A DNA stretch of 64,000 nt, from contig NZ_JACNMM010000005.1 in the NCBI RefSeq assembly GCF_020529025.1, positions 248,001 to 312,000 on the forward strand, in the 5' to 3' direction. Positions 9,962 through 54,327 of this stretch are shown here, piece by piece. A program made the position numbers and the translations under genes. The notes under the pieces were generated by a model. It saw only the letters and a program-made list of their open reading frames with translations, had not been told where the DNA came from and ran no database searches. The stretch comes from Oceaniglobus trochenteri (GTDB lineage: Bacteria; Pseudomonadota; Alphaproteobacteria; Rhodobacterales; Rhodobacteraceae). Each line of letters begins with the position of its first letter. Within the stretch, counting starts at the first letter, position 1.

Positions 9962-9989
9962 CGCAGTTCCTTTTCGGTGATGTGCGGAG

Positions 9990-14883: not shown

Positions 14884-16145
14884 CAGGTCTTGACCCGTCG
14901 CATGATCAGCGCCGCGTTGGTGCCGCCGAACCCGAAGGAGTTCGACAGGACAACGTCGATCTCACGCTCGACCTTGGCATTGGGCGCCAGGTCGATCTTC
15001 GTCTCGGCATCGGGGTTGTCCAGGTTCAGGGTCGGCGGCGCCACCTGATCGCGCATGGCAAGGATGCAGAAGATCGCCTCGATCGCGCCGGCCGCACCCA
15101 GAAGGTGCCCGGTCGAGGATTTGGTCGACGACATCGTGACCTTGCCCGCCGCATCGCCCACCAGGCGTTCAACCGCGCCCAGTTCGATGGTGTCGGCCAT
15201 GGTGCTGGTGCCGTGGGCGTTGACGTAATCGATCTCGCCCGCGTCGATCCCGGCCCGCGCAACGGCGGCCTTCATCGCCCGCTCGGCGCCCTCGTGGTTG
15301 GGGGGCGGGGCAGTGATGTGGTGGGCGTCGCCCGACAGCCCGTAACCGATGACCTCGCCATAGATCTTCGCACCGCGCGCCAGGGCGTGTTCGTATTCCT
15401 CAAGAACGACGACACCCGCCCCCTCGCCCATGACGAAACCGTCGCGGTCCTTGTCCCAGGGGCGCGACGCCTTCGTCGGATCGTCGCCCCGCCCGGTCGA
15501 AAGCGCCTTGCAGGCGTTGAACCCGGCAATCCCGATTTCCGAGATCGGGCTTTCGGCACCGCCCGCGATCATCACGTCGGCGTCGCCCCACTGGATCAGC
15601 CGCGCCGCATCCCCGATGGCATGGGCCCCGGTTGAACAGGCCGTGACAACGGCGTGGTTCGGCCCCTTGAAGCCATAGCGGATGGAAACCTGGCCGCTGA
15701 TCAGGTTGATCAACGCGCCGGGAATGAAAAAGGGCGAAACGCGCCGCGGCCCCCTTTCGTGCAACAGAACGGCGGTGTCGGCGATGGATTGCAGCCCGCC
15801 GATGCCCGAACCGATCATCACACCGGTGCGCACGCGGTCTTCCTCGTCCTTGGGCATCCAGCCCGAATCCTCGACCGCCTGCTGCGCCGCCGCCATCCCG
15901 TAAAGAATGAAGTCATCGACCTTGCGCTGCTCTTTCGGCTCCATGAAATCGTCGGGGTTGAAGGTGCCATTGCTGCCGTCGCCGCGCGGCACCTCGCAGG
16001 CGTAACCGGTCGCAAGGCGCCCGGCATCGAACCGCGTGATCGGGCCCGCGCCCGATTCCCCGGCCAGAAGTTTGCTCCATGTGGCTTCGACACCGCTGGC
16101 CAGAGGGCTGACCATGCCCAATCCCGTGACAACAACTCGACGCAT
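14883..16145 (-). CDS. fabF: 3-oxoacyl-ACP synthase II
   Basis: 420-residue condensing enzyme of fatty acid elongation. The catalytic triad is visible as C170 (VVTACSTGAH), H311 (NAHGTSTMADT) and H347 (KSSTGHLLGA). I start at 16145 (MRRVVVTGLGMVSPLA), which has GGAG eight bases upstream; an ATG six codons earlier lacks a site. The gene is separated from acpP by an intrinsic terminator and runs into mltG. Confidence 0.96.
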   Translation of the reverse strand: MRRVVVTGLGMVSPLASGVEATWSKLLAGESGAGPITRFDAGRLATGYACEVPRGDGSNGTFNPDDFMEPKEQRKVDDFILYGMAAAQQAVEDSGWMPKDEEDRVRTGVMIGSGIGGLQSIADTAVLLHERGPRRVSPFFIPGALINLISGQVSIRYGFKGPNHAVVTACSTGAHAIGDAARLIQWGDADVMIAGGAESPISEIGIAGFNACKALSTGRGDDPTKASRPWDKDRDGFVMGEGAGVVVLEEYEHALARGAKIYGEVIGYGLSGDAHHITAPPPNHEGAERAMKAAVARAGIDAGEIDYVNAHGTSTMADTIELGAVERLVGDAAGKVTMSSTKSSTGHLLGAAGAIEAIFCILAMRDQVAPPTLNLDNPDAETKIDLAPNAKVEREIDVVLSNSFGFGGTNAALIMRRVKT

Positions 16146-16255
16146 ATGTTTGTCTCCGCTCATCTCTTTGCCGAAGTGATACACCGCCCCTTGCGACGGT
16201 GAAAGAGGCGCCGCACCGGGCGGCATCACCCCGCCGGGGCCGTCCCCAAAAATGG

Positions 16256-16287
16256 AAAAAGCGGTGAATCCCATCGGAAACACCGCC
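16256..16287 (-). terminator. Intrinsic terminator after acpP
   Basis: On the minus strand GCGGTG and CACCGC form a 6-bp stem with a 14-base loop, followed by five T (bases 16260-16256). It separates acpP from fabF, which suggests that acpP has its own abundant short transcript. Confidence 0.6.
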
Positions 16288-16748: not shown

Positions 16749-17486
16749 CTAGTACATCGACATCCCGCCGTTCACATGCAGGGTCGCGCCGGTGACATAG
16801 GCCGCCTCGTTGCTGGCCAGGTACAGTACCGCCGCGGCGATCTCGTCGGCCTCGCCCATGCGCCCCGCGGGCACCTGCGCCAGAAGGGATGCCTTCTGAT
16901 CGTCGTTCAGCGCGGCGGTCATGTCGGTGGTGATGAAACCGGGTGCCACGGCGTTCACCGTCACCCCCCGGCTGGCAACCTCCTGGGCCAGGGATTTCGA
17001 CATCCCGATCATCCCGGCCTTGCTGGCGGCATAGTTCGCCTGCCCGCCGTTCCCCGAGGCCCCGACGATGGACGAGATGTTGACGATCCGCCCCCAGCGC
17101 GCCTTCATCATGCCCCGCAGCACCCCGCGCGACAGCTTCATGGCGGCGGTCAGGTTCACCTCGATCACCTTGTCCCACTGCTCGTCGCTCATGCGCAGCA
17201 TCAGGCCATCGGCGGTGATCCCGGCATTGTTGACCAGGATATCCACAGACCCCATGGCTTTGGCCGCCTGCCCCGGCAGCGCCTCGACGGCGGCACGGTC
17301 CGACAGGTTGCAGGGCAGGACATGCGCCCGTTCGCCCAGGGTTTCGGCCAGCGCCTGCAGGGGCGCCTCGCGGGTGCCCGACAGCGCCACAGTGGCACCG
17401 GCATCATGAAGAACCTTGGCGATGGCACCGCCCAGCCCCCCGGAAGCCCCGGTAATCAGGGCGCATTTTCCTGTCAGATCAAACAT
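16749..17486 (-). CDS. fabG: 3-oxoacyl-ACP reductase
   Basis: 245-residue SDR that reduces 3-oxoacyl-ACP with NADPH. The nucleotide-binding motif TGASGGLGGAIA is at residues 12-23, NNAGI at 86-90, and the catalytic residues are in NISSI (about 138-139) and Y152/K156 of NYAASKAGMIG. It lies between fabD and acpP, the standard fab order. Confidence 0.96.
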   Translation of the reverse strand: MFDLTGKCALITGASGGLGGAIAKVLHDAGATVALSGTREAPLQALAETLGERAHVLPCNLSDRAAVEALPGQAAKAMGSVDILVNNAGITADGLMLRMSDEQWDKVIEVNLTAAMKLSRGVLRGMMKARWGRIVNISSIVGASGNGGQANYAASKAGMIGMSKSLAQEVASRGVTVNAVAPGFITTDMTAALNDDQKASLLAQVPAGRMGEADEIAAAVLYLASNEAAYVTGATLHVNGGMSMY

Positions 17487-22778: not shown

Positions 22779-23651
22779 CTAGACGCGCTCCAGCGCGCCG
22801 GTGCGAAATCCGATCACGTTGTCCTTCTCGGGCCTGACGGCGGTGCCGATCACGATCTCGCCCGCCCCGCTCAACAGTGTGGTGCGGCGGTGCACCATTA
22901 GATCCTGCCCCTGGTCCATCCGCACCCTGCTCCCGCCCGAGCTGTGATCGGTGAACTCCAACTCGCCACTGCTGATCGTCAGAACCGCGTGGCTGCGCGA
23001 AACGCTAGGCACCTTGATCAGGATATCACTGTCGGGCGCCCGCCCGATTGTCAGCCGCCCGCCCGGCACCAACTGCCAATGGGCATCCCCCAGCGACACA
23101 TCGGCAATGGCCATGCGGTTGCTGCCGCCACGCCCGCCGGGAATCACCGTCGTCTGGGTGCCCAGCGTGGCCACCGTGCAGGAAAAAACCTGCGTCGCGG
23201 CCTCTTTTCCCCGAAGCGGAATCGCGCCGATCGCAAGGAACCTCTGCCTGTGGGACTCGTCCAGATCGTCATGACAGGCATCGCCGAACAGGATCTCTCC
23301 GGCCTTGGCAAGTGACGCCAGCCGCGCCGCCGTATTCACCGCGCCGCCGTATATGTCATTGGCATGGCTCAGGATTTCGCCGAAATAGGCACCCGCGTGA
23401 ATGGCCAGATCGTCGGGCCAGGGTTCGTTTATCATGGCCCAGGCGGCAAGGAAGGCGCCGTTGGAATCGGGGAAGAACGACAGCACGTCGTCTCCCTTCG
23501 ACTTCACGCAATGCCCCCCCGCCTCCACGATCAGCGCGCGCATGCGGGCCAGAACGCTGTCGATGCGGGCCAGCGCCTCGGCGTTGCCCATACGGTCGAA
23601 CAATCGGGTGCTTCCGGTCACATCGGACACCAGCACACAGGCCAGGGACAT
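22779..23651 (-). CDS. Class III nucleotide cyclase-like protein with FHA domain
   Basis: 290 residues. The N-terminal cyclase homology domain (about 1-165) has a metal-binding Asp in SDVTGSTRLFDR (D10), a second in SKGDDVLSFF (D54/55) and the NTAARL transition-state region. The substrate-specifying lysine of true adenylate cyclases is not obvious by eye. A C-terminal FHA domain (about 195-285) shows LTIGRAPDSD and VSRSHAVL, the GR...SxxH phosphothreonine-binding signature. Together this suggests a soluble signalling protein linked to Ser/Thr phosphorylation. The start at 23651 is the first Met that begins the domain. Confidence 0.85.
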   Translation of the reverse strand: MSLACVLVSDVTGSTRLFDRMGNAEALARIDSVLARMRALIVEAGGHCVKSKGDDVLSFFPDSNGAFLAAWAMINEPWPDDLAIHAGAYFGEILSHANDIYGGAVNTAARLASLAKAGEILFGDACHDDLDESHRQRFLAIGAIPLRGKEAATQVFSCTVATLGTQTTVIPGGRGGSNRMAIADVSLGDAHWQLVPGGRLTIGRAPDSDILIKVPSVSRSHAVLTISSGELEFTDHSSGGSRVRMDQGQDLMVHRRTTLLSGAGEIVIGTAVRPEKDNVIGFRTGALERV

Positions 23652-23743
23652 GGGAAAACAAGCTCCTGATAGGAAAATGGGTCGGTTGAAAATATGCGCG
23701 CAACCTATCGCGCCCGGGGACGCGGGCGCAACCGCCCGGCCAC

Positions 23744-23772
23744 AAAAAAGGCCGCCCCAGGGGCGGCCTTTC
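23744..23772 (-). terminator. Terminator of tig
   Basis: AAAGGCCGCCC and GGGCGGCCTTT pair around a short loop, with six T on the minus strand. It lies 20 bases after the trigger factor stop. Confidence 0.85.
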
Positions 23773-23792
23773 ACAACGCCAAAAGCGTCTGA

Positions 23793-25453: not shown

Positions 25454-26533
25454 TCAGCCGCCGCAGATCGCATCCAGAATCGGACGCGGCGCGCTATCGC
25501 CATGTCCGGCCGCCCACATGCGAAAGCCATCAATCCGCCGGGCAACCTTTTCATCGTGGTTCTGGGCAATATCGGCAATCCGGTGGGCCAGGAAGGGGTT
25601 GGCGAACCGCTCCATCGTGGTGGCGACATAGGCGTCGAAGGCCTCGGCCATGCCCGCGGCGGCGAAACCCGGCCGCACCTCGTCGCGGTAAAGCGCGCTC
25701 AGCGCGGCGGCACGCTCGGGGTCGGCCATGGCGCGGGCCACCGTATCTTCGGGGTCGCCCCCCGCGACCTGCCAACGGTCGGCAAGGTAGGTATGCCCGA
25801 GGTTCAGCACGAAAAGCTTCAGGGCCGCGATGGGCGCCAGATCACCAACCACCTCGACAGCGGGATGGGTGCAGGGCAGGCGCAGACCCGGCTGATCCTC
25901 GATCGCCCAAAGCGCATAGGGTTCGGCTACTGCACCTGCCGGCTCAAGCGGGGCCGAAACGATCCGGTCGACCAGGGAATTGACCCACAGAACTCCGGTT
26001 TCCAGATAATCCCGAAAGGCGCCATCATCACCGGCCAGTTCAAGAACCCTGTCCCGCAACACCGCGCCATTGTCGGTAATCAATTCGGTCGGCATCACCT
26101 GGATCGGCGCGGCCCCCGCATCGAACCGCGCCTTCAACAGCAGCATCAGCTTGGCCGGATAGGACATGGCCTGGTCGAAAGCCGCACTGCCGTCTGCGGG
26201 CTGCGGCGCGAACCCCTTGTCGCCGGTGTTCGACAGGATGATCTCGGCCTCCTCGCAGGCGATGCGCGTGATCTCGTCCCAGTCGGTGGCGCTTGAGGCG
26301 GTGCGCGCCACGCTGTTGACCCACACCTCGCGTTGAACGGTCTCGCCCTCGGAAATACCCTCGATCCGCACCGGGAATCCCTCGGCCAGGGCCGCCAGGC
26401 GATGGGCGCGCGCCGGATCGCCCGAGCTTTGCACGACAGTGATCGGCCCCGCCCCCGCCTCGGAGATGAACAGATCGGCATGAGCCTGAAGAAACCGGCT
26501 GGTGCCGAATTGCAGGATCGGAGTATGCGCCAT
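25454..26533 (-). CDS. Mannitol/altronate-type long-chain dehydrogenase
   Basis: 359 residues of the polyol-specific long-chain dehydrogenase family (mannitol dehydrogenase, mannonate and tagaturonate reductases). The family catalytic signature Lys-x4-Asn-x2-His is K239, N244, H247 in [16 protein letters not shown]. The N-terminus [17 protein letters not shown] is the NAD-binding start of the uronate-reductase-like branch. The protein is shorter than classical mannitol dehydrogenases. Substrate cannot be set from sequence. It is divergent from the reductive dehalogenase across 140 bases. Confidence 0.85.
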
Positions 26534-26673
26534 GATCGGCCTTTCACGCCTGGGGGACTGAGGGTTCACCCCGTCCTTACGGACAGCGCGCCGGAACTGT
26601 CAACGCCACGACCTGCGCCGTTGATCTTGGGCCGCACCTGCCCCATTCTGCCGCGAGGTGGATCGGGGGGATC

Positions 26674-29600
26674 ATGGGACTGCGCTTTTTTTCGGACAAG
26701 GATCGGCCTGTTCACCTGGGCCCCTACCCGCTCGAGCGGCTGGCCCGCGGGCCGATGCCCGACCTGAAGTCGGCACCGCCCTTTCGCCAGCTTGATTTTC
26801 GGCGCGCCGAAACGCCCGAAAGCATCGTCAACGCCATGGGCGAATACCAGGCGATGCTTGACGCGATCCGCGATGGCCTGGTCAACCGCGCCAGGGCCGA
26901 GGCCCCCGAAGACCCGAGCGAACGCGCCAACCACCTGAAGGCCTTCGGGTATTTCTCGGATGCAGCGATGGTCGGCATTTGCGATCTTCCGGCTGCGGCG
27001 CGGCTTACCACGCCCTTTCAGAACCCCGATATCGCGCGCCTGGCCGACGACCTGCGCCACCGCCAGACCCGCACCCTGGCCTCGGGGATCGATGTCATCA
27101 TGGCCGACCTGCGCGATTCCATGGAGGCACCGCCCGCAGGCATCGACACCCATTCGCAGGCGATCGTTTTCCTCTACGAACATCCACGCGACCCGAAACC
27201 GGATGAAACCGGCACCGACTGGATCAACGATGCCCAGGCCCATCGCGCCGCCCTGCGCGCCAGCGAAACGGCCGTGGTCATCGCCAACTACATCCGCTTG
27301 CTGGGCCATGATGCCACGGCCCATACCGCCACCTCTTCGGATGTCGATCTGCATCGCCTCACCCTGGCTGCGGGCCTTGCGACGCTTGAGAACGGTCAAC
27401 TGGTTGCGCCCTATGTCGGCACCGGATTCGGCGTCGCGGCCATCACCACCACCTTCGCAATGACGCCCGACGCCCCCCTTGCCGCCATGGCGCAACAGCC
27501 AAGGTTCAAGACGCGCGGCCCGGCCTGGTGGCTGGGCAAGGGCTTTGCGAAATCCGCGCTGAACCGCGACCCCTTCGCGCGGCGCCGCTTCGTGGATGGC
27601 GCGCATCCCTTCGAAACCCTGAAACGGGTCGATACCCCCACCACCTATATCGACGAACCCAACGTCGCCCGCGTGCCCAAACGCGCCGACATGTTCGCCC
27701 GCGCGCAGTTCGGGGACATGGGCAAAGCGGTGCAGGACGGCGCGAAAGGCGGCCACTATGCCCGCAAGGCCGCGCCTTCGATGGCCCAGCGCCGCGCGCT
27801 CGGGGCCTTCGTGCTGATCCAGGACGGCCCCGCCCTGCCCGGGCCCCGTCCGGATGACGCCACGCGCAACGCCGCCAATGTCAAGGCGGCCTCCTATTGG
27901 CTGGGGGTCGATGCCGTCGGCATTTCGCGCTGCCCCGACTGGGCCTGGTATTCGCATGACGCCACCGGCGCGCCGATCACGCCGCCCCACGACCAGGCGA
28001 TCAGCATGATCATCGACCAGGGCCGCGAAACCATGGAGGGATCGTCTGGCGACGACTGGATCGGCGTAGCCCAGAGCATGCGCGCCTATCTGCGGTTTTC
28101 GCTGCTGGGCGGGGTCATCGCGAAACAGATCCGCAATCTCGGTTATTCGGCCAAGGCGCATACGGTGATGGATGGCGAGGTGCTGCAGCCGCCGCTCCTG
28201 CTGCTCTCGGGGCTGGGCGAGGTGTCGCGCATCGGCGAGGTGATCCTGAACCCGTTCCTTGGCCCGCGCCTGAAGTCGGGGGTCGTGACCACCGACATGC
28301 CGCTTGCCCACGACAAACCGGTGGATTTCGGGCTTCAGAGGTTTTGCCAAAGCTGCAACAAATGCGCGCGCGAATGCCCCTCCGGCGCCATCACTGCCGG
28401 CCCGAAGCTGATGTTCAATGGCTACGAGATCTGGAAATCCGACAGCCAGAAATGCGCCACCTACCGGATCACCACGCCGGGCGGGGCGATGTGCGGGCGC
28501 TGCATGAAGACCTGCCCCTGGAATCTTGAGGGGCTTTTTGCCGAGAAACCCTTTCGCTGGGCCGCCATGAACCTGCCCGCCAGCGCCCCTCTTCTGGCCC
28601 GCCTTGATGACACCATGGGAAATGGCGGCCTGAACCCGGTAAAGAAATGGTGGTGGGATCTGGAACTGGAGAAGGACGGCGCATATCGCCCGACGCGCCA
28701 TCCGGTGAACGCGCGCGATCTGCAAAAGGATCTGGTGCTGAACCACGCGGATCAGACCCTGGCCGTTTACCCCGCGCCCCTTGCGCCGCCGCCTTACCCC
28801 TATCCCTTTCCAATGGACCGCGAGGCCGGTATCCGGGCCTATGGCACCATGATCTCGGCGCAGGAACACAAGGCCCGCCGCGCAAGGGGCACCCCGCCCG
28901 AACATGTCTACAACCCGCCGGGCGATGCCCCCGTGATCCGGGTCGAGGTTGCACGCGCCGAACGGCTTAGCGCGGATGTCACGCTTTACGATTTCGTGCC
29001 GCTTGACACCGACACCCTGCCCGCGTGGACGGCCGGGGCCCACCTTGATATCGTCGTCGCGCCCGAATTCCTGCGCCAGTATTCGATGTCTGGTGACCCG
29101 GCGGACAGGGCGAAATACCAGATCGCCGTGCTGCGCGAAGACGCCGGGCGCGGAGGATCGGCGCTGATGCACCGCATCTTCACCCCGGGCCGCAAGGTCT
29201 TTGTCTCGCGCCCGATCAACCACTTTGCCCTGGATGAAACCGCGCCGCACAGCCTGCTGATGGGCGGTGGCATCGGGGTCACGCCGATGATCGCCTTTGC
29301 CCACCGTCTTCACGCCATCGGCGCATCCTTCGATCTGCATTACTCCGTCCCCAGCCGCAATCGCGCCGCCTTTCTTGAAAAACTGTGTTCCATGCCCTGG
29401 GCCAACAGGGTTCATCTGCATGTGTCCGATGAATCAAGCCGCGCCGACCTGTCCCATATCCTGCGCACGCAACCGGAAGGCACCCATGTCTACACCTGCG
29501 GCCCCGATCCTTATATGGGCGCCGTGATGCAGGCCGCGCAGAGCGCCGGTTTCCCCGACGACCACTGCCATCTTGAGTATTTCTCGGTCCCCGACCTGCC

Positions 29601-29880
29601 CGAGCGTGAGAATTTCGCCTTCACGCTCAGGCTGGCCGCATCGGGGCAGACCATCCCGGTCGCCGCCGATCAGAGCGCGACCGACGCCCTGGCCGCCGCC
29701 GGCATCAAGGTTGATGTCAAGTGCAGCGATGGCCTTTGCGGTGTCTGCAAATGCGGTTTGCGAGAGGGTGCGGTGGACCACCGCGATTTCGTTCTTTCCG
29801 CCGCCCAACGCCGCACGACGATGATCCTGTGCCAGTCCCGCGCCGCCGAGCCCGGTGGCGTGATCGAAATCGACCTCTGA
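26674..29880 (+). CDS. Self-sufficient reductive dehalogenase fused to an FMN/NAD/2Fe-2S reductase
   Basis: 1068 residues. Residues about 1-700 are a cobalamin-dependent reductive dehalogenase (RdhA) core: a Tyr at 426 in AWYSHDAT, then two ferredoxin-type cluster motifs, C558-C561-C564-C568 in FCQSCNKCARECPSG and C594, C607-C610-C614 in CGRCMKTCPW. Residues about 754-1068 match phthalate-dioxygenase-reductase-type proteins: RQYS (801-804) for FMN, GGGIGVTPM for NAD(P)H, and a plant-type 2Fe-2S site C1017, C1022, C1025, C1053. There is no Tat signal, so it is cytoplasmic. This is the layout of aerobic catabolic dehalogenases such as BhbA and NpRdhA, which act on halogenated hydroxybenzoates or phenols. 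K494 and R556 are candidates for the other catalytic residues. Substrate is unknown. Confidence 0.9.
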   Translation: MGLRFFSDKDRPVHLGPYPLERLARGPMPDLKSAPPFRQLDFRRAETPESIVNAMGEYQAMLDAIRDGLVNRARAEAPEDPSERANHLKAFGYFSDAAMVGICDLPAAARLTTPFQNPDIARLADDLRHRQTRTLASGIDVIMADLRDSMEAPPAGIDTHSQAIVFLYEHPRDPKPDETGTDWINDAQAHRAALRASETAVVIANYIRLLGHDATAHTATSSDVDLHRLTLAAGLATLENGQLVAPYVGTGFGVAAITTTFAMTPDAPLAAMAQQPRFKTRGPAWWLGKGFAKSALNRDPFARRRFVDGAHPFETLKRVDTPTTYIDEPNVARVPKRADMFARAQFGDMGKAVQDGAKGGHYARKAAPSMAQRRALGAFVLIQDGPALPGPRPDDATRNAANVKAASYWLGVDAVGISRCPDWAWYSHDATGAPITPPHDQAISMIIDQGRETMEGSSGDDWIGVAQSMRAYLRFSLLGGVIAKQIRNLGYSAKAHTVMDGEVLQPPLLLLSGLGEVSRIGEVILNPFLGPRLKSGVVTTDMPLAHDKPVDFGLQRFCQSCNKCARECPSGAITAGPKLMFNGYEIWKSDSQKCATYRITTPGGAMCGRCMKTCPWNLEGLFAEKPFRWAAMNLPASAPLLARLDDTMGNGGLNPVKKWWWDLELEKDGAYRPTRHPVNARDLQKDLVLNHADQTLAVYPAPLAPPPYPYPFPMDREAGIRAYGTMISAQEHKARRARGTPPEHVYNPPGDAPVIRVEVARAERLSADVTLYDFVPLDTDTLPAWTAGAHLDIVVAPEFLRQYSMSGDPADRAKYQIAVLREDAGRGGSALMHRIFTPGRKVFVSRPINHFALDETAPHSLLMGGGIGVTPMIAFAHRLHAIGASFDLHYSVPSRNRAAFLEKLCSMPWANRVHLHVSDESSRADLSHILRTQPEGTHVYTCGPDPYMGAVMQAAQSAGFPDDHCHLEYFSVPDLPERENFAFTLRLAASGQTIPVAADQSATDALAAAGIKVDVKCSDGLCGVCKCGLREGAVDHRDFVLSAAQRRTTMILCQSRAAEPGGVIEIDL

Positions 29881-30016: not shown

Positions 30017-30796
30017 TCAATAGGTGCCGGGATAGCTTCCCCCATCGATCAGAAGATTCTGACCGGTGATGAACCCCGCGTGGGCGCTGCAGAGAAAGGC
30101 GAAATATGCCCCGATTTCCTCAACCCGGCCATAGCGGCCCGCCGGAATGCCCCGGGCGCGGGCCTGCCAGACTTCGTCAAAACTCTTGCCCATCTCGTCA
30201 AGCATGCCTTCGATATGTTCGCGCTGGCCATCGCTGTCGAAGATGCCGGGAAGCAGGTTGTTGATGGTCACGCCCCGCGCCACCGTCTGGCGGGCCAGGC
30301 CGGCGGTGAAGCCAACCAGCCCCGACCGCGCCCCGTTGCTGAGCCCCAGTTCAGGCTGCGCGATCTTCACGCTGCGCGAAGCGATGTTGACGATCCGGCC
30401 GAAACCGCGCTCCATCATGCCATCGACGGTCGCGCGCATCATCATGATCGGCGGCAACATCATCTGTTCCACCGCCGCCACCCAGACATCGGAACCCCAG
30501 TCGCGAAAATCGCCCGGCGCGGCCCCACCCGCATTGTTGAGAAGGATGTCAGGGGCGGGACAGGCGGCAAGGGCCGCCGCGCGCCCCTCTTCCGTCGTGA
30601 TGTCTGCGGCCACCCATTGCACAGTTGCGCCCGTATCGGCACGGATCGCCTCGGCCGCCTGTTCCAGCGTATCGGCCGTGCGCGCCACGATCGTCACTTC
30701 GGCGCCTTCCTGCGCCAGGCGATGGGCGCAGGCCCGCCCCATGCCCTTGCTCGCTCCGGTCAGAAGTGCGCGTTTTCCTGTCAGTCCAAGGTCCAT
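30017..30796 (-). CDS. SDR-family protein lacking the catalytic Tyr and Lys
   Basis: 259 residues with a Rossmann start LLTGASKGMGRACA (residues 11-24), NNAGG (87-91) and NIAS (137-140). Where FabG-type enzymes have Tyr-x3-Lys, this one has S153 and R157 (LSNGARSGLVGF), so the usual proton relay is absent. A subgroup of SDR-like proteins with such degenerate tetrads is known. It begins inside the last codons of the molybdopterin gene (16-base overlap) and ends the operon. It may be non-catalytic or use another mechanism. Confidence 0.85.
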   Translation of the reverse strand: MDLGLTGKRALLTGASKGMGRACAHRLAQEGAEVTIVARTADTLEQAAEAIRADTGATVQWVAADITTEEGRAAALAACPAPDILLNNAGGAAPGDFRDWGSDVWVAAVEQMMLPPIMMMRATVDGMMERGFGRIVNIASRSVKIAQPELGLSNGARSGLVGFTAGLARQTVARGVTINNLLPGIFDSDGQREHIEGMLDEMGKSFDEVWQARARGIPAGRYGRVEEIGAYFAFLCSAHAGFITGQNLLIDGGSYPGTY

Positions 30797-32997
30797 TCCG
30801 TTTCCTTTTCGATCTTCACCAGCGTGCTCAGCGCTGCACAGGCCTGCGCCAGTGATGATGTCTGCCGCCAGGCGGTCAGAACATTCGGGTTTCCATTGCG
30901 CTCGCCCGCCTTGTCCGGCGCAAACCAGGCGCCCGTGGCCATCACCACGACACCCCGGCGCAGGCCGGCGTCTGCCACCAGCCGCGCGAAACAGGCCCCG
31001 CGATGGTTGAACAGGCGCACCCCGTCCCCATCGCGCAGGCCCCGCGCCGCAGCATCCTCGGGGTTCATGTGCACCGGCTGCGGCGCCTGATCCCCCACCT
31101 GCCAAAGCTGGCTGTGCAACTGGCGCGCCGGCTGGTTGGTCACCAGGTGCAGGTCGTCCGCTGCGGCGGCGCCCAGCCATTCGACCGGCTCAAGCCAGGC
31201 GGGATGGCCGGGGCAATCGGCAAGGCCGAAACCTGCAATGGTCTGCGAGGAAATCTCGATCCGCCCCGATGGCGTTGCCAGGGGATGGGCCAGAGGATCG
31301 TCGCGGAAATCCTGCAACAAGACCTCGGGGCGCGCCTCGGGCGGAACGGGCCATGGGCCATTTGCGAAGAACTCGTCAAACTCAGCCACCTGCACGCCTT
31401 CGGTGATGCCCCGCGCCTGGCTGCGCGCCCACATATGGCGCAGCCAATCCATCTCATCCCGCCCGTCATCGAAGGCCGCGCGGCACCCCAGCCTGTCGGC
31501 CAATGCGCCGAAGGTGGCGAAATCGTCACGCGCCTGCCCCACCGGCGCGATGACCCGGGGCATTGGGATGACGAAAAGATCGCGCGAGGTGCCGCCAATG
31601 TCGTTGCGCTCCAGCGTCGTTGTCGAGGGAAAGACGATATCGGCGCGCTGAGCGGTCGGAGTCCACCATGGGTCGTGAACGATCACGGTTTCCGGCCGCT
31701 GCCAGGCCTTTTCAAGCGCGTTCAGGTCCTGCGCATGGTGAAACGGGTTGCCCCCCGCCCACCAGATCAGCCGGATATCGGGGGCGATGACCGTGGTGCC
31801 ATTGAAGGCGAAGCGGCGGCCCGGATTGGCCAGCGCCTCGGGGAAACAGGCGACGGGTATCGGTGTTCCGACCGGGTTGGGCAGCCCCTCCATCGCGGGC
31901 ACGAATCCGCGCCGCCCGGCCGCCCCGACACCGTTCATCGACCCGTAACCAAAGCAAAACCCGCCCCCCGGCAACCCGATCTGGCCCAGCATCGCGGCCA
32001 AGGCCACCAACGCCCAATAGGGTTGTTCGCCATGGTCGGCCCGCTGGAGCGACCAGCTTGCCGTCAACATCACGCGGCCCGTGGCGATCCTGTTCCACAG
32101 CGCTTCAAGCTGGGTCAGCGGCACATCCGCCAGGCCGGCCGCCCATTCCAGCGTCTTTTCGGTGCCGTCATCGCCACGCAGGTAAGCGATGAAAGGCTCG
32201 GCCCCTACGGTGAAGCGGTTCAGGAAAGCGCGGTCGGCGCGGCCGGTGATCACGGCCTTGTGGCACAGCGCAAGAATGATCGCGGTATCGCTGCCCGGGC
32301 GCGGCTGAACCAGCGCCGCATTCAGGCCCGGCGGAACGTCCTGCGCCAGGGGCGAGACGACGGTGAAGGACACGCCGTTGTCGGCCGCCCTGCGCACCGC
32401 TTCCGGCAGGTGATGCGCCACCGCGCCGCCCGATGTGACGCGCCAGTTCTTGGGGTTCAGCCCGCCGAAGGCCACCACCGTATCGGCATGATCGGCGACC
32501 GTGGCCCAATCGGTCGCGGCCGAGGATACCGCGCTGTCATCGCCCAGCACATGGGGCAGGATGAACTGTGCCGCACCCCAGGAATAGTTGCCGCTGACAT
32601 CGGTGAACCCGCCCGCCGCCGCCAGGAAGCGGCGCACCTGAGTGCGGGCATGGTGGAACCGCCCGGCACTGGACCAGCCGTAGGAGCCGCCGAAAACCGC
32701 CTGCGCTCCATGCTCGCGGTGTACCCGGGCAAGCTCGGCCGCTGCCAGGTCCAGCGCCGTGTCCCACGCGACGGGCACCATCTCATCGGTCCCGCGCCCG
32801 GCCCCGCCTGCGCCGTGGCCCTTTTCAAGGAACCCGCGGCGCACGTGCGGTTGGGTGATGCGGCTGTCGGAATAGACAAGATCGGGCCACTTCCCGATCA
32901 TCTGCGGATTGGCCCCGCCCAGGGGGTGCGCTGCGACAAGGCGGCCGTTTTCGACGACCGCCTCGAACGCCCCCCAATGGCAAAGCGATACCACCAT
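30781..32997 (-). CDS. Molybdopterin oxidoreductase, BisC/DMSO-reductase type
   Basis: 738 residues, a full bis-MGD molybdoenzyme of the DMSO/TMAO/biotin sulfoxide reductase branch. The Mo-ligand Ser is expected at S110 in GGSYGWSSAGRFHH. Other family blocks are GGLNPKNWRV, WWAGGNPFHHAQD and the C-terminal cofactor domain with NQPARQLHSQL. There is no N-terminal 4Fe-4S cysteine motif and no Tat signal, so it resembles cytoplasmic BisC rather than periplasmic DorA/TorA. The start codon directly follows the stop of the DapA-like gene. Substrate (an S-oxide, N-oxide or a hydroxylation) is not known. Confidence 0.88.
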   Translation of the reverse strand: MVVSLCHWGAFEAVVENGRLVAAHPLGGANPQMIGKWPDLVYSDSRITQPHVRRGFLEKGHGAGGAGRGTDEMVPVAWDTALDLAAAELARVHREHGAQAVFGGSYGWSSAGRFHHARTQVRRFLAAAGGFTDVSGNYSWGAAQFILPHVLGDDSAVSSAATDWATVADHADTVVAFGGLNPKNWRVTSGGAVAHHLPEAVRRAADNGVSFTVVSPLAQDVPPGLNAALVQPRPGSDTAIILALCHKAVITGRADRAFLNRFTVGAEPFIAYLRGDDGTEKTLEWAAGLADVPLTQLEALWNRIATGRVMLTASWSLQRADHGEQPYWALVALAAMLGQIGLPGGGFCFGYGSMNGVGAAGRRGFVPAMEGLPNPVGTPIPVACFPEALANPGRRFAFNGTTVIAPDIRLIWWAGGNPFHHAQDLNALEKAWQRPETVIVHDPWWTPTAQRADIVFPSTTTLERNDIGGTSRDLFVIPMPRVIAPVGQARDDFATFGALADRLGCRAAFDDGRDEMDWLRHMWARSQARGITEGVQVAEFDEFFANGPWPVPPEARPEVLLQDFRDDPLAHPLATPSGRIEISSQTIAGFGLADCPGHPAWLEPVEWLGAAAADDLHLVTNQPARQLHSQLWQVGDQAPQPVHMNPEDAAARGLRDGDGVRLFNHRGACFARLVADAGLRRGVVVMATGAWFAPDKAGERNGNPNVLTAWRQTSSLAQACAALSTLVKIEKETEWTLD

Positions 32998-33933
32998 CTA
33001 TTCGGCGGCAAGCGACGGACGGTTCAGCCCGTATTTCTCGGCCAGGCCCAGCTTGTCGAAGGCCGCCAACCCCTTGGCCAGAACGGCGCCCGAGGCCGGT
33101 TGCAGCGGCTTGCGCAGCGGACCGGAGGGCAGACCCACCGCCTGCATCAGGGTCTTGATGCTGACCGGGTTCACCGCCGCATAGGCGAAATGCAGCATGT
33201 CGAGGTTTTCCAGCCAGGCCGCACGGTGGTTGAAGGCGTCTTCCCCCGTTTCCCAAGGCTTGGAGATCACCGCCATCTCGCGCGGGATGATGTTGCCGGT
33301 CATGTTGGCCGTGCCGTGCCCACCCAGGGCCATCATCGGCACCACGAGGCCGAGGTTGGGGGAACAGCAGCACATGATCGACATGTCGGGCTTGGCCGCA
33401 CAGATCTGCGCCACCTGCCCCACCCGCGTGGTGGATTCCTTCAGCACCACCATGTTGGGGTGCGGTGCCAGCTTCAGCAGGTCGTCCCAGTGCAGATCGG
33501 TCTTCACCCGGGGCGGGTTGTTGTAGAACCCCATGGCCAGGTCGGTGCTGTCCAGCACCTCGAGCATGTAGTCGGTGATCGCCGCATTGTCGGCGCAGAT
33601 ATACGCCGGCGCGGCGATGATTGCGCCATCGGCACCCTCGGCCTTGGCGAAGCGCACATAGTTGATGGTCGTTTCGGTGTTGTTGCCGGTACAGCCATAA
33701 TACATCAGCATATTGCCCGGCTTCATCTTCGCCGTTTCGCGGATGATGGCGCGGCGTTCCTCGGGCGACAGCATCGAAACCTCACCGGTGGATCCCATGA
33801 TCAGCACCGCTTCGGTGCCGTTTTCGGCGTGCCAGTTCAGAAGCGTGCGGAAGCCTTCAAAATCAATCGAACCATCGGCGTTCATCGGGGTGACAAGGGC
33901 CACGAAAGACCCCTTCGGCTTGATATGAGACAT
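32998..33933 (-). CDS. DapA-family aldolase/lyase
   Basis: 311 residues, class I pyruvate-type aldolase family (dihydrodipicolinate synthase/NAL superfamily). The Schiff-base lysine is K165 in VVLKEST, the catalytic Tyr is Y137 in GFYNNPP, and GSTGE (48-52) binds the carboxylate. In a TRAP transporter operon it is more likely a catabolic lyase or dehydratase for an imported acid than the lysine-biosynthetic enzyme. It lies 12 bases after dctM. Confidence 0.87.
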   Translation of the reverse strand: MSHIKPKGSFVALVTPMNADGSIDFEGFRTLLNWHAENGTEAVLIMGSTGEVSMLSPEERRAIIRETAKMKPGNMLMYYGCTGNNTETTINYVRFAKAEGADGAIIAAPAYICADNAAITDYMLEVLDSTDLAMGFYNNPPRVKTDLHWDDLLKLAPHPNMVVLKESTTRVGQVAQICAAKPDMSIMCCCSPNLGLVVPMMALGGHGTANMTGNIIPREMAVISKPWETGEDAFNHRAAWLENLDMLHFAYAAVNPVSIKTLMQAVGLPSGPLRKPLQPASGAVLAKGLAAFDKLGLAEKYGLNRPSLAAE

Positions 33934-33945
33934 TTTCGGTCCTCC

Positions 33946-35253
33946 TCAGAAGAATTGCGGAACAAGAAGTTTTGGCAGCCAAAGCATGATCCCCGGCACC
34001 CAAAGCGACAGGACACCGACCGTGATGGTCAGCAGGCAGATCGGCGCGGCGGCCCACATGGCGCGCCCAAGGGGGACGTCTCCGATGCGCGATGCGATCA
34101 GCAGGCAGATGCCATAGGGCGGCGTGATTAGCCCCACCGACAGCGTGACGGTGGACAGCACCCCCAGGTGAACCGGGTTCATGCCGGCCGTGTCGCCCAG
34201 GCCCTGGATGATCGGCAGGAAGATCAGCGTGGCGGAAATGGGGTTCAGAACCATGCCCACCAGCAGCAGGAAACCCATGAGAAGCAGCATGATACCGAAC
34301 CGGTTTGCCGTGACGCCCAGGATGAAATCGACGACGATCTGCGCGGCCCCGAGGTAGGCGATCATCCAGCCGAAGATCCCCGCGCTGGCGACCGTGAACA
34401 TGGGAATGGCGAAATCCACGACCGCCGCCTGCAGGATGCCGGGCAAGAGGCGCAGCGGAATGTCGCGATAGACAACAAAGGTGAGGAACAGCGCCCAGAG
34501 CACGGCGATGATGCCGCCCTCGGTAGGCGTGAAGAACCCGCCCACGATCCCCCCCAGCACCAGCACCGGGATCATCAGCGGCGCCGATCCGCGGGCCACG
34601 GCGACCCCCATGCCGCGCACGCCCGGAAACGGGTTGGCCGGGTATCCGTGCCGCAGCGCCAGCACATAGGTATAGCCCATCATGAAGGCCCCCACCAAAA
34701 GGCCCGGCCCCACGCCCCCCAGGAACAGCGCGCCGATGCTGACGTTGCCGAAGGCGCCGTAGACGATCAGGATGATGCTGGGCGGAATGATCACGCCCAG
34801 CGTCGAACTGGCGGCCGTCAGGGCCACGGCGAAGGCCGGATCGTAACCCGCCTTCTTCATCGCCGGAATCAGGATGCTGCCCACACTGGCCGTATCCGCC
34901 GCCGCCGACCCCGAAAGCGAGGCAAAGATCATCGAGACGAACACATTCACATGGCCAAGCCCGCCGCGTACATGGCCCACGGTGGCATCGGCCACCGCAA
35001 GAAGGCGTGTGGTGATGGAGCCGGCGTTCAGGATGCGGCCCAGCAACATGAAGAAGGGCACCGCCAGCAGGGTGAAACTGTCGATCCCCGCATACATCTG
35101 GTTGACCACCGAGGTCAGCGGCAGATCCTCGATCAGCATGACCAGAACCGACGACAGGATCAGCGAAAAGCCGATGTTCACGCGCAGGGCGATCAGCACG
35201 AAGAACGAGCCGAGAAGAACGACAAGTGGGTTCAAAAGGTCTCTCCCCGCCAT
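33946..35253 (-). CDS. TRAP transporter large permease subunit DctM
   Basis: 435 residues with about 12 hydrophobic segments, typical DctM family (VPFFMLLGRILNAG, SLSGSAAADTASVGSILIPAM, LGVIIPPSIILIVYG). It is the ion-coupled channel of a tripartite solute importer for organic acids. The ATG at 35253 overlaps dctQ by 22 bases. A TTG at 35235, overlapping the dctQ stop and preceded by GGGGAG, is a serious alternative start and would remove six residues. Confidence 0.93.
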   Translation of the reverse strand: MAGRDLLNPLVVLLGSFFVLIALRVNIGFSLILSSVLVMLIEDLPLTSVVNQMYAGIDSFTLLAVPFFMLLGRILNAGSITTRLLAVADATVGHVRGGLGHVNVFVSMIFASLSGSAAADTASVGSILIPAMKKAGYDPAFAVALTAASSTLGVIIPPSIILIVYGAFGNVSIGALFLGGVGPGLLVGAFMMGYTYVLALRHGYPANPFPGVRGMGVAVARGSAPLMIPVLVLGGIVGGFFTPTEGGIIAVLWALFLTFVVYRDIPLRLLPGILQAAVVDFAIPMFTVASAGIFGWMIAYLGAAQIVVDFILGVTANRFGIMLLLMGFLLLVGMVLNPISATLIFLPIIQGLGDTAGMNPVHLGVLSTVTLSVGLITPPYGICLLIASRIGDVPLGRAMWAAAPICLLTITVGVLSLWVPGIMLWLPKLLVPQFF

Positions 35254-35702
35254 TGTTTCAGGGCGATTTCAACAAGGAACAGCGCCATCATCACGCCGCT
35301 GACCGGGATCGGCAGATAAAGCCACATGCGCGAGATGCCGATGCTCTGGATTTCGCCGCGCGCCCGGGCCATCGACAGCGCCCAGCCGTTTGAGACCAGG
35401 ATGAACACCACCACCACGCTGACCAGGATGCCGAACCAGGAGATCGCACGGCGGGCGGGGCTGTCGCCTGCGGGCCAGAGATCGACGAAGTAATGCGCCC
35501 CCTGGCGCAGGCCGATCGCCGCGCCCACGAAGATCAGCCAGGAAAACAGCAGTTGCGCCACGTCGCTGGTCCAGAGCATGGGCAGCGACAGTATGTTGCG
35601 CGCGATGACCTGAAGCGCAACGGCACCGATCAACCCGAAGAACAGGATGCCCGAGACGACTTCGGCGGTGCGCATGACCGCCTGGCATAAACGTCGATAC
35701 AT
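35232..35702 (-). CDS. TRAP transporter small permease subunit DctQ
   Basis: 156 residues with four membrane helices, as usual for DctQ. Family features are VALQVIARNILSLPMLWTSD near residues 27-46 and FSWLIFVGAAIGLRQGAH. It pairs with DctM. It starts 52 bases after dctP, beyond a hairpin. Confidence 0.9.
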   Translation of the reverse strand: MYRRLCQAVMRTAEVVSGILFFGLIGAVALQVIARNILSLPMLWTSDVAQLLFSWLIFVGAAIGLRQGAHYFVDLWPAGDSPARRAISWFGILVSVVVVFILVSNGWALSMARARGEIQSIGISRMWLYLPIPVSGVMMALFLVEIALKQWRGETF

Positions 35703-35723
35703 GATCTATCCACCGTGACGGCA

Positions 35724-35748
35724 CGCCCCCGGGTCAGACCCGGAGGCG
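35724..35748 (-). repeat. Intercistronic hairpin between dctP and dctQ
   Basis: A 25-base near-perfect inverted repeat, CGCCCCCGGGTC against GACCCGGAGGCG, with one mismatch. It lies seven bases after the dctP stop. Such hairpins commonly stabilise the binding-protein mRNA so that it is made in excess over the permeases; that role is inferred. Confidence 0.6.
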
Positions 35749-35754
35749 CGAAAA

Positions 35755-36750
35755 TCACTTGCCTTTCAGAAGCTTGTATTCGGCTTCAAGGTCAAGCTGG
35801 GCGGCAAGTTCGGACTGGATCGGTTCCAGCCGGGTGCTGAAGGCCGCCTTGTCGGGCTGCGAAACGGTCACGCCGTGGTCCTTCTTCAGGGTTTCCACCA
35901 GGGCGCCGTCGTATTCCTCGGCCTTTTCCAGCCCGTGCAGGTTGGCCTCGCGCGCGGTGTCAACCACCAGTTGCTGCAGGTCTTCGGGCATCTTGTCGAA
36001 GGTCCGCTGCGAGATCGAGATATGGTGGATCTGCACCTGGTGCTGGGTCAGGGCGAGGTTCGGCGCCACTTCGTAAAGCTTCGAACCGCTGTAGCCGGGA
36101 AGCGAGCTTTCCATGGCATCGGCAACGCCGGTCTGCATGGCGGCGTAAAGTTCACCCCAGGCCACTGACACTGGCAACATCCCCAGCGCCGACCATGTCG
36201 CGGCGTCCATGGGCGATTGCGTGGTGCGCATGCGCAGCCCGTCCAGTTGGTCGGGCGTGGTCACCGAAACATCGACCGCCGCCATGTTCCGCGTACCCGC
36301 CGGACCAAGCGCGAGAAGCTTGACCCCTGTGCCACGGTCGGCAAAGGCGGCGGCGAAGTGATCGTGCGCCGGCGTGCCGGGTTCGAGGATGGCAAGCGCC
36401 TCGTCCATACCGGCGAAAAGATAAGGCATCGTGAAGATCGACAGTTCGGGCACCTCGCCCGCGGCGTTGCTGGCGGTGGAAACCATCATGTCGATGGTGC
36501 CAAGGCCGACCTCGCCGATCACCGCCGGATCCTGGCCCAACTGCCCGGAATCAAACACCTTCACGGCGATGCGGCCCTCGCTCTTTTCTTCAAGCGTTGC
36601 CTTAAGATAGTCCGCCATGTCATTGTAAGGATGCGGAGATTTTACCAGCGTGTGAATGCGCAGGTTCACATCGGCGGCCCAGGCGCCAGTGGTTCCGGCC
36701 AGCAAGGTGCCAAAGGCAAGGGCCAGGCTGGCCCGTCGGTTGATCTTCAT
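35755..36750 (-). CDS. TRAP transporter substrate-binding protein DctP
   Basis: 331 residues with a Sec signal (MKINRRASLALAFGTLLAGT, cleavage near AWAAD). The mature protein is a TRAP binding protein: LVKSPHPYNDMADYLK near the start, the conserved Arg region LRMRTTQSP, and GVADAMESSLPGYSGSKLYE. The start at 36750 has GGAGA upstream. First gene of the operon dctP-dctQ-dctM-dapA-like-molybdoenzyme-SDR, divergent from a LysR gene. The ligand is probably an organic acid. Confidence 0.93.
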   Translation of the reverse strand: MKINRRASLALAFGTLLAGTTGAWAADVNLRIHTLVKSPHPYNDMADYLKATLEEKSEGRIAVKVFDSGQLGQDPAVIGEVGLGTIDMMVSTASNAAGEVPELSIFTMPYLFAGMDEALAILEPGTPAHDHFAAAFADRGTGVKLLALGPAGTRNMAAVDVSVTTPDQLDGLRMRTTQSPMDAATWSALGMLPVSVAWGELYAAMQTGVADAMESSLPGYSGSKLYEVAPNLALTQHQVQIHHISISQRTFDKMPEDLQQLVVDTAREANLHGLEKAEEYDGALVETLKKDHGVTVSQPDKAAFSTRLEPIQSELAAQLDLEAEYKLLKGK

Positions 36751-36857
36751 CTCGCGTCTCCCCGTTCTGATGGCGATATCCATCATTGGGACTCGGACTT
36801 GCGATAAAATCAAATAGAATTAACGTGGCACCTTATGCGGCAATGTTATGGGGCGCG
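36751..36857. promoter_or_regulatory. Divergent LysR/TRAP operon control region
   Basis: 107 bases between dctP and lysR, AT-rich from 36796 to 36825. GATGG-N6-CCATC (36769-36784) is a small inverted repeat close to the dctP start that could be part of a LysR-type operator. No unambiguous promoter boxes were found. Confidence 0.4.
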
Positions 36858-37784
36858 ATGAACGACCGTCAGATCAACGCCTTTCGCCAGGTGATGCGCC
36901 TTGGGTCGGTGACGGCCGCCGCCCGTGCGCTGGCCGTGTCACAGCCCGCCGTCAGCCGGTTGATCGGCGATCTTGAGAGCGACCTTGGCTTTGCCCTGTT
37001 CGACCGGCGGGCGGGCAAGCTGTTTCCCACCCCCGAGGCGCGCAATTTCGCGTCAGAGGTCGAGCGGATGTTCTATGGCCTGGCACGGTTGGAGCGTTTC
37101 GCCCGCGACATGCACAACCTGCGCCAGGGCAGCCTTTCGGTGGCCACGCTGCCCATGGTCAGCTTCCAGATCCTGCCCCGCGCCCTTTCCGCATTCCTGA
37201 AAGATCACAATGGCTTGCGCGTCACTCATAATGTCCACACCTCACCCCGGGTCGCCGATCTGGTCGCCGCTGGCCAGGCCGATCTGGGCATCGCGCAGAC
37301 AGCGCCGGGGCGCAGCGATGTGCGCCATCTTCAGTCGTGGCGCACCGATTGCGTGGTGGCGCTGCCGGTCGGCCACCCCCTTGCCGGATATGCGCAGATC
37401 ACACCGCAGGATCTGAAGGGTGTGGCCATGGTGGCGCTGTCGTTCCAGACGGTGACGGCGGGCTATGCGACCGAACGCTTTGCCGAGGCCGGCATCGCCC
37501 CGGAGATCGTGATCGAAAGCCAACCCTCCTATTCGGCCTGCGCGCTGGTGGCCGAAGGGCTGGGCGCTGCGATTGTCGATCCGCTGACCCCGCGCCAGTT
37601 TCCGCCAACCGCGCTTTGCACCGTTCCCTTTGCCCCGGCGATTCCCTTCGATCTGCACCTGCTGGCCCATGCCGACCAGCCCCTGTCGCGGCCCGCGGCG
37701 GCCATGGCCACCACCCTGGCCGAAACCATGGACGCCACGCCGGGCGTGCGGCGTCTGCGCGATGTTGCCGGTGCGCCCGACTGA
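36858..37784 (+). CDS. LysR-family transcriptional regulator
   Basis: 308 residues. The N-terminal winged HTH is INAFRQVMRLGSVTAAARAL followed by SQPAVSRLIGDLESDLGFAL; the C-terminal co-inducer domain spans about 90-300. The start at 36858 (MNDRQINAF) is preferred; the Shine-Dalgarno sequence is weak and an ATG at 36843 is possible. Divergent position makes it the likely regulator of the TRAP/DapA/molybdoenzyme operon. Confidence 0.92.
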   Translation: MNDRQINAFRQVMRLGSVTAAARALAVSQPAVSRLIGDLESDLGFALFDRRAGKLFPTPEARNFASEVERMFYGLARLERFARDMHNLRQGSLSVATLPMVSFQILPRALSAFLKDHNGLRVTHNVHTSPRVADLVAAGQADLGIAQTAPGRSDVRHLQSWRTDCVVALPVGHPLAGYAQITPQDLKGVAMVALSFQTVTAGYATERFAEAGIAPEIVIESQPSYSACALVAEGLGAAIVDPLTPRQFPPTALCTVPFAPAIPFDLHLLAHADQPLSRPAAAMATTLAETMDATPGVRRLRDVAGAPD

Positions 37785-37848: not shown

Positions 37849-39000
37849 ATGCAGGCGACACGACGAAACTTTACCTTCGGGGCCATGGCGGCGCTTCTTT
37901 CGGGCTGCGGCATGGGGGCATCCGGCGGGTTTTCCGCGCCGGTGCGCCGGGCCGATGCGGCGATGCCATCGGTGCCCAACGCGGGCTGGGATGCCTGGGT
38001 GGCATCCTTCAAGGGGCGCGCGGCGGCCCAGGGCATTTCCCCCGCCGTCATCGAAAGCGCCTTTCGCGGCGCGGGCTTCCTGCCCGGCGTGATCGAACGC
38101 GACCGCAACCAGACCGAGTTCAAGCGCAGCCTGGAAGATTACCTTTCCATCGCCGCCTCGGACGAACGGGTTGCCAAGGGGCGCAGCTATTTCGCCCAGC
38201 AGCGCAGCACCCTGGCGCGGATCGAACAGCGTTACGGCGTCGAGGCGCATGTCGTCGCGGCCATCTGGGGGCTTGAGAGCTTTTACGGCGAGCGGCGCGG
38301 CAGCATTCCCATCGTATCATCCACCTCGACCCTGGCCTACGAGGGGCGGCGCGGCGCCTTCTTCGAAAAACAGCTGATCGCGGCGCTGCAGATCCTGCAA
38401 AACGGCGACACCACGCCGGCGAACATGACCGGAAGCTGGGCGGGCGCCATGGGCCACACCCAGTTCATTCCCACGTCTTACGAACTTTTCGCCGTCGATT
38501 TCACCGGCGACGGGCGGCGCGACATCTGGTCGGACGATCCCACCGATGCCCTGGCCAGCACCGCCGCCTACCTGGCGAAATCGGGCTGGCAACGCGGCCA
38601 GTCCTGGGGCGGTGTCGTCGGGACGCCGGGGGCAAATGTGCCGGGTGGGCGGCAGTTGCAGCCCGAGGTCGGCGGGCCGGTCTTTGTCGTCGGGCGCAAT
38701 TTCGACGCCATCAAGCGCTACAACAACTCGGACAGCTATGCCATCGGCGTCGGGCACCTGTCCGACCGCATCCTGGGCGGCGGGCCGATCGAAGGCCCCT
38801 TCCCGCCCGATCAGTACGGCCTGCGCAAGGATGACCGGATCGCGCTGCAACGGCGGCTGACGGCGGCGGGTTTCGACACCCAGGGAGCCGACGGCGTGAT
38901 CGGGCCGAACACCCGGTCGGCCATTTCCGCCTACCAGGGGCGCATGGGCCTTCCCGTCACGGGCGAACCGTCCCAGGCGCTGCTGTCGCGACTGGGCTGA
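37849..39000 (+). CDS. MltB-like lytic murein transglycosylase with peptidoglycan-binding domain
   Basis: 383 residues. The N-terminus MQATRRNFTFGAMAALLSGC has a twin-Arg pair and a lipobox ending in C20, so it may be a Tat-exported lipoprotein. The catalytic Glu is E143 in IWGLESFYG; AMGHTQFIPTSY and DDPTDALASTAAYLAKSGW are typical of the MltB family. A C-terminal peptidoglycan-binding domain (about 325-383) ends with DGVIGPNTRSAISAYQ. Single gene. Confidence 0.93.
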   Translation: MQATRRNFTFGAMAALLSGCGMGASGGFSAPVRRADAAMPSVPNAGWDAWVASFKGRAAAQGISPAVIESAFRGAGFLPGVIERDRNQTEFKRSLEDYLSIAASDERVAKGRSYFAQQRSTLARIEQRYGVEAHVVAAIWGLESFYGERRGSIPIVSSTSTLAYEGRRGAFFEKQLIAALQILQNGDTTPANMTGSWAGAMGHTQFIPTSYELFAVDFTGDGRRDIWSDDPTDALASTAAYLAKSGWQRGQSWGGVVGTPGANVPGGRQLQPEVGGPVFVVGRNFDAIKRYNNSDSYAIGVGHLSDRILGGGPIEGPFPPDQYGLRKDDRIALQRRLTAAGFDTQGADGVIGPNTRSAISAYQGRMGLPVTGEPSQALLSRLG

Positions 39001-49119: not shown

Positions 49120-49131
49120 GTCTTGCGCCCC

Positions 49132-53018: not shown

Positions 53019-53031
53019 ATCCGCGGCCCCC

Positions 53032-54306: not shown

Positions 54307-54327
54307 GTCTATCTCCTGATCTCCGGC

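Follow-up and report, generated by a model that had tools for sequence, protein, structure and literature searches.

The stretch analyzed here (the window: 64,000 nucleotides from Oceaniglobus trochenteri, family Rhodobacteraceae; RefSeq assembly GCF_020529025.1, contig NZ_JACNMM010000005.1, positions 248,001 to 312,000) carries, at 26674..29880, a gene whose product joins a reductive dehalogenase core (RdhA) to a reductase module of the phthalate dioxygenase reductase (PDOR) type. For the residue positions given below, the protein was aligned with NpRdhA, the reductive dehalogenase of Nitratireductor pacificus, and with 112 rows of fused homologues. The 113 fused rows, 102 of which are distinct once 11 duplicates are dropped, are a close set, composed of this protein, of BhbA and of sequences 70-77% identical to this protein.

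26674..29880, + strand: rdhA-PDOR fusion gene, 1068 amino acids; ATG start, no internal stop; matches TIGR02486 and NpRdhA
26674..27663, + strand: N-terminal part, residues 1-330, collinear with the NpRdhA N-terminus (vestigial cobalamin-domain duplicate); boundary approximate
26989..27114, + strand: 42-residue insertion, residues 106-147; absent from NpRdhA, found in fused relatives, diverged in BhbA
28075..28089, + strand: S468, M469 and the predicted catalytic proton donor Y472 (NpRdhA S422, M423, Y426); 102/102 distinct rows
28273..28275, + strand: K534 (NpRdhA K488); 113/113 rows, 102/102 distinct
28345..28515, + strand: two 4Fe-4S motifs, C558/C561/C564/C568 and C594/C607/C610/C614; 8/8 cysteines invariant in 102/102 distinct rows
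28465..28467, + strand: R598 (NpRdhA R552), substrate-hydroxyl binding by the role given in PMC7565698; 102/102 distinct rows
28921..29853, + strand: C-terminal reductase module, residues 750-1060, with flavin, NAD(P)H and 2Fe-2S domains
29074..29085, + strand: RQYS motif, residues 801-804, from the alignment with the fused rows
29344..29358, + strand: SVPSR, residues 891-895, like SVRSR of CYP116B46 (6laa) and unlike LTRDP of phthalate dioxygenase reductase (2pia)
29722..29832, + strand: 2Fe-2S ferredoxin cysteines C1017, C1022, C1025 and C1053 (Fer2); invariant in 102/102 distinct rows

Profile searches assign both halves of the protein. It scores 189.6 bits with the reductive dehalogenase model TIGR02486, above the curated cut-off of 160.35; Fer4_7 and Fer4_16, both above cut-off, cover C558-C614, and Fer2 reaches 34.7 bits against a cut-off of 21. 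By phmmer, almost the whole of NpRdhA is covered at an E-value of about 1e-158, in two blocks (residues about 2-106 and 159-735, aligned with 4ras 1-101 and 112-692), and residues about 750-1060 match phthalate dioxygenase reductase and the reductase portions of CYP116B-type P450s, with E-values from 1e-61 to 4e-52. Two features that define membership of the fused type are present, namely the vestigial N-terminal duplicate of the cobalamin domain and a PDOR-type module lying on the same chain as the RdhA core. The initial annotation, which had described an RdhA core with two 4Fe-4S motifs (C558-C568 and C594-C614) fused to a flavin mononucleotide (FMN)/NAD(P)H/2Fe-2S reductase, is confirmed on both counts; the four ferredoxin cysteines and R801, Q802 and S804 are kept in all 113 rows and Y803 in 111 (100 of the 102 distinct ones). 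A search of the host genome with the fusion protein, at an E-value of 1e-3, returned a single match, the protein itself.

The six NpRdhA active-site residues F291, S422, M423, Y426, K488 and R552 correspond to F341, S468, M469, Y472, K534 and R598, each identical in 113/113 rows (102/102 distinct). Their roles are those given for NpRdhA in PMC7565698. The catalytic Tyr-Lys-Arg, whose alignment with NpRdhA and BhbA had been proposed as a check, is kept as Y472, K534 and R598. Tyr426, first taken as the catalytic tyrosine, aligns instead with NpRdhA Y379, a conserved residue which is not catalytic.

These residues also bear on a rival reading, in which a reductase is fused to a class III cobalamin enzyme of the QueG kind or of another kind that is not a dehalogenase; placement in such a B12 family was one of the outcomes which the initial annotation named as speaking against its proposal. 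Class III enzymes do have a common core, and TIGR00276 gives a weak match; its 23.8 bits are, however, far from the QueG cut-off of 200, TIGR02486 is passed, and the NpRdhA residues binding the substrate hydroxyl are kept. QueG was accordingly rejected, and an enzyme of this kind appears very improbable.

In the reductase module, the RQYS motif (801-804) is what we take to be the flavin-binding motif. The resemblance of SVPSR to the corresponding segment of CYP116B46 suggests that the module prefers NADPH; the arginine of this segment, R895, is kept in 99 of the 113 fused rows (88 of the 102 distinct ones).

Domain order and active-site residues, both established by alignment, together with the analogy to characterized enzymes, indicate that the protein is very probably a self-sufficient B12-dependent dehalogenase, using NADPH to convert ortho-halogenated phenols into the dehalogenated phenol and bromide or iodide. 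NADPH, the presumably preferred donor, would reduce the FMN of the C-terminal module, and electrons would pass from the flavin to the 2Fe-2S domain, then to the two 4Fe-4S clusters and finally to base-off cobalamin, a path modeled on JtRdhA, BhbA and NpRdhA. The reduced cobalt would take the halogen off a phenol that S468, K534 and R598 hold by its hydroxyl; a proton would be provided by Y472, with K534, and bromide or iodide would be released along with the dehalogenated phenol. The class of self-sufficient catabolic reductive dehalogenases, already suggested from the sequence, is thus supported by TIGR02486 and by the active-site alignment.

The substrate class is likewise suggested by JtRdhA, BhbA and NpRdhA. 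According to PMC10463259, JtRdhA carries out NADPH-coupled debromination and deiodination, also in air, while the chlorinated compounds tested there were not turned over and acted as inhibitors; its authors left open whether fused enzymes act on brominated compounds only. Because of JtRdhA, and of a tetrabromobisphenol A dehalogenase cited in the same paper, bromine or iodine would be a likelier leaving group than chlorine: of the "bromine or chlorine" first proposed, bromine is retained, chlorine becomes less likely and iodine may be added.

No twin-arginine translocation (Tat) motif was found at the N-terminus or across the 46 in-frame upstream codons, and RRxFx[KLR] is absent from the first 70 aligned residues of all 113 fused rows, in agreement with the initial annotation. 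Nor is there an rdhB-like gene beside rdhA, where the flanking genes belong to other families, although the genome was not scanned with an RdhB model. A respiratory reductive dehalogenase would belong to the same superfamily, and the membrane association reported for BhbA (PMC5316534) would suit it; the missing Tat signal, for which this candidate was rejected, the fused NAD(P)H reductase and the lack of an apparent rdhB among the adjoining genes make it extremely improbable.

Some observations weigh against the assignment as a catabolic dehalogenase of ortho-halogenated phenols, or limit it. Five pocket residues differ from NpRdhA (F290 to M340, K307 to R364, F310 to A367, A419 to V465 and N452 to V498), each change being near-universal among the fused rows (96 to 101 of the 102 distinct ones), so that the exact substrate is not fixed. 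The structure model is of modest quality (mean predicted local distance difference test score, pLDDT, 70.1; predicted template modeling score, pTM, 0.61) and is weak around the Fe-S clusters, with residues 553-623 below 50, and the pocket was described without it. rdhA stands alone, both flanking genes being antisense and neither belonging to aromatic catabolism (a tagaturonate-reductase-like gene upstream, an SDR gene downstream). Since BhbA is described as cell-membrane-associated in a review (PMC5316534), a cytoplasmic location is suggested solely by the absent Tat signal. Finally, in a gene tree rooted on NpRdhA, the L016 protein is placed closest (support 0.95) and BhbA falls outside the group formed by the other 112 fused rows (0.83); as NpRdhA is the sole unfused sequence and inner branches are weak (0 to 0.68), the tree does not test membership of a fused clade.

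The surroundings of rdhA were compared in 83 named loci, taking at most 10 kb to either side (less in many of them, where the contig ends), and in 30 kb of the window. Genes were called by a simple script based on GC content at third codon positions (GC3), which may miss small genes; rdhA was missed by a text motif in L047, L055, L078, L089 and L094, which were left out of relative positions only. No conserved operon was found in this set, the largest cluster of non-rdhA neighbors, 5-oxoprolinase PxpA, extending over 11 loci. Five other window genes have homologues of at least 35% identity in some of the 83 loci, a weak or incidental resemblance: the lytic murein transglycosylase (MltB_2) at 37849-39000, in four loci some kb from rdhA (66% in L032, about 50% in L086, L095 and L099) and probably by chance; two SDR/FabG-type genes, in three loci each (that at 16752-17486 identified by eye alone); the BisC-type gene, in L098 (36%); and the upstream gene 14886-16283, in L103 (36%).

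In 13 loci a LuxR-type (GerE) regulator, which may control the dehalogenase, lies near rdhA. It is adjoining and divergent in 12 of them (L051, L049, L069, L045, L063, L046, L109, L027, L075, L024, L099 and L086) and lies about 5 kb away in L095. The L051 protein (9124-10083, minus strand) was scanned with Pfam, and the other 12 are tblastn matches to it.

Genes of aromatic catabolism are linked to rdhA in a few relatives. A pobA-like gene lies nearby in 6 of the 83 named loci (L031, partial, L081, L082, L089, L097 and L100) and also in G197, where L019 and L120 are the same place; over at least 5 genomes, the rdhA-pobA gap is 361 bp in G197, 89 bp in G227, 15 bp in G370 and about 10 kb in both G089 and G108. 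The L031 frame, on plasmid pBHB (5827-6657), is a partial PobA-like sequence located just upstream of ligA, with 278 amino acids aligned at 60% identity; it has no entry in the PLSDB gene table, a table with known gaps. hmgA was found near rdhA in 2 of the 83 loci (L080 and L101), and in at least one further genome, G294 (L119), it lies 0.6 kb away, separated by a 161-residue open reading frame, MarR-like by eye only.

Physical linkage is thus more frequent for pobA (6/83) than for hmgA (2/83), which points to 4-hydroxybenzoate and argues against a homogentisate route. The same enzyme might have 4-hydroxybenzoate as its main natural product, as for BhbA, the host exporting this product or using another route. 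The short gaps in G197, G227 and G370 favor this possibility, and 3,5-dibromo-4-hydroxybenzoate is a substrate of both JtRdhA (PMC10463259) and NpRdhA (PMC7565698); given the host data reported below, we regard it as worth keeping, if on the improbable side. A role in detoxification, with the enzyme protecting against algal or animal bromophenols and the product simply released, would suit an rdhA gene standing alone, with no conserved operon found and a LuxR-type regulator adjoining it in some relatives; the pobA or hmgA genes linked to rdhA in several relatives and the HmgA association suggest carbon use instead, and detoxification is rather unlikely.

At an E-value limit of 1e-100, 150 of the 394 genomes sampled from the family have the RdhA core (residues 1-734), which makes 150 of 393 genera; among the 347 genomes with at least 90% completeness and at most 5% contamination, 141 do. 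At least 588 stretches of GTDB species contigs encode relatives, the best 80 of which include Rhodobacteraceae, metagenome-assembled genomes (MAGs) of Rhizobiaceae and one Geminicoccaceae MAG. BhbA homologues have been reported mostly from marine aerobic proteobacteria (PMC5316534) and as widespread in roseobacters (PMC13101508). Given these counts and this published spread, the gene is neither rare nor new in kind, and the initial reference to a "few known" enzymes does not hold for the core in this family.

In the host genome, HmgA (homogentisate dioxygenase; 650.5 bits against a cut-off of 510.75), HPPD (370.7 against 277) and CobN (1577 against 822) were detected. In contrast to what 4-hydroxybenzoate as main product would lead one to expect, the best PobA score, 24.6 bits, stays below the cut-off of 538.7, and the PcaH profile gave no match; the HpaB profile gave none either. 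G183, the only sampled genome of the same genus, is the reverse of the host, with PobA and without a match for rdhA or HmgA.

Co-occurrence was evaluated over the 394 genomes with E-value limits of 1e-100 for the rdhA core, 1e-80 for HmgA and PobA and 1e-250 for CoxL, used as control; totals by E-value and by curated cut-off are 268 and 263 for HmgA, 263 and 253 for PobA, 102 and 100 for CoxL. HmgA is found in 132/150 rdhA carriers and 136/244 non-carriers (odds ratio, OR, 5.8; Fisher p 5e-12, a value too small because the test ignores shared ancestry), PobA in 118/150 and 145/244 (OR 2.5), and CoxL in 55/150 and 47/244 (OR 2.4). These counts also disregard habitat, genome size and incompleteness. 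In a joint logistic model for rdhA, HmgA retains an OR of 4.7 (z 5.3) and CoxL of 1.9 (z 2.6), while PobA, at 1.5 (z 1.6), is not significant and hence does not track rdhA once adjusted for the other two. The control shows a background OR of about 2, and part of the HmgA signal is background, since CoxL tracks both rdhA and HmgA (CoxL-HmgA OR 2.7) and HmgA tracks PobA (OR 4.7).

These figures hint at homogentisate as a frequent end point of the dehalogenated product, which would be expected for halogenated tyrosine or 4-hydroxyphenylpyruvate substrates. Because homogentisate is the only encoded route among those searched for, a 4-hydroxyphenylpyruvate or tyrosine-type product may fit the host better than 4-hydroxybenzoate, a suggestion which we advance tentatively. 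More speculative, and on present evidence unlikely, is that the job of the enzyme, in the host and in many relatives, is to feed halogenated tyrosine-type compounds into the HPPD-homogentisate pathway; these may be bromo- or iodotyrosine, 3-bromo-4-hydroxyphenylpyruvate or similar compounds. Among the literature titles and abstracts listed, none links the fused dehalogenase type to homogentisate or bromotyrosine, which is weak evidence. Should this role be correct, Rhodobacteraceae would routinely use aerobic B12-dependent debromination as a side entrance to tyrosine catabolism, and not for pollutant degradation. The presence of the core in so many genomes and its tracking of the homogentisate pathway, uncorrected for phylogeny, bring the native substrate within reach of growth and mutant tests; oxygen-tolerant, NADPH-driven debromination is also of interest for bioremediation.

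At 25454-26569 of the window a divergent gene of the tagaturonate-reductase-like/mannitol dehydrogenase family has its upstream region in common with rdhA. On the other side, an antisense cluster (30017-37784) contains SDR, BisC-family, DapA-type and TRAP DctM and DctP genes with a divergent LysR regulator, and looks like an uptake-and-catabolism cluster. Its BisC-family molybdopterin S/N-oxide reductase (814.7 bits against 1017.55) and its DapA-type aldolase are below cut-off, and the open reading frame between DctM and DctP (35232-35702), which has no NCBIfam match, is DctQ by position only. No tie to halogen chemistry was found for the sugar-acid, SDR, BisC-type, DapA-type and TRAP genes next to rdhA. 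Further away are a small protein in which an FHA domain comes after one of the adenylate/guanylate cyclase type (22779-23774), a pyruvate dehydrogenase cluster with single-chain E1, E2 and lipoyl-bearing E3 (51270-56982), and genes for NAD(P) transhydrogenase beta and alpha, the latter with a 4TM region (47686-50706), a possible source of NADPH with no link to rdhA.

Among known systems, the closest in description is JtRdhA, from Jhaorihella thermophila, which presumably belongs to the same bacterial family as the host. PMC10463259 recognizes four subfamilies of reductive dehalogenases, and of the two that are catabolic one has the reductase domain and the other lacks it: BhbA and JtRdhA are of the fused type, NpRdhA is naturally "truncated", so that the initial annotation was right in citing BhbA as a fusion and wrong for NpRdhA. 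As described there, the marine JtRdhA (WP_104007082) has, like the present protein, a duplicated cobalamin domain, two 4Fe-4S clusters, a PDOR fusion, no Tat signal, the equivalents of NpRdhA Y426, K488 and R552, and an extra insertion, reported as specific to JtRdhA and related fusions. Ros_A3X954 of Roseobacter sp. MED193 (PMC13101508) is a debrominating roseobacter enzyme also devoid of a Tat signal; unlike the fusion protein, it has its Fe-S motifs at residues 283-294 and 337-345, which suggests a shorter type. The same strain (L063) encodes a fused RdhA as well, 71% identical to the window protein. Ruegeria sp. TM1040, a cultured roseobacter, has a homologue at 72%.

BhbA, encoded by plasmid pBHB of Comamonas sp. 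7D-2 (L031), is 51.6% identical over 1056 columns, with the catalytic residues and cluster cysteines kept; on the plasmid its gene is, however, clustered with ligA, an extradiol dioxygenase subunit, porins and insertion sequence elements, and the 42-residue insertion has diverged. NpRdhA (4RAS, 6ZXU, 6ZXX, 6ZY0, 6ZY1) is 44.6% identical to the RdhA part over 675 columns and shares all six active-site residues, while it lacks both the reductase domain and the insertion and differs at several pocket positions. Judged by its architecture and by its identity to BhbA, to the NpRdhA core and to the alphaproteobacterial fusions, the protein encoded in the window is a member of the fused type.

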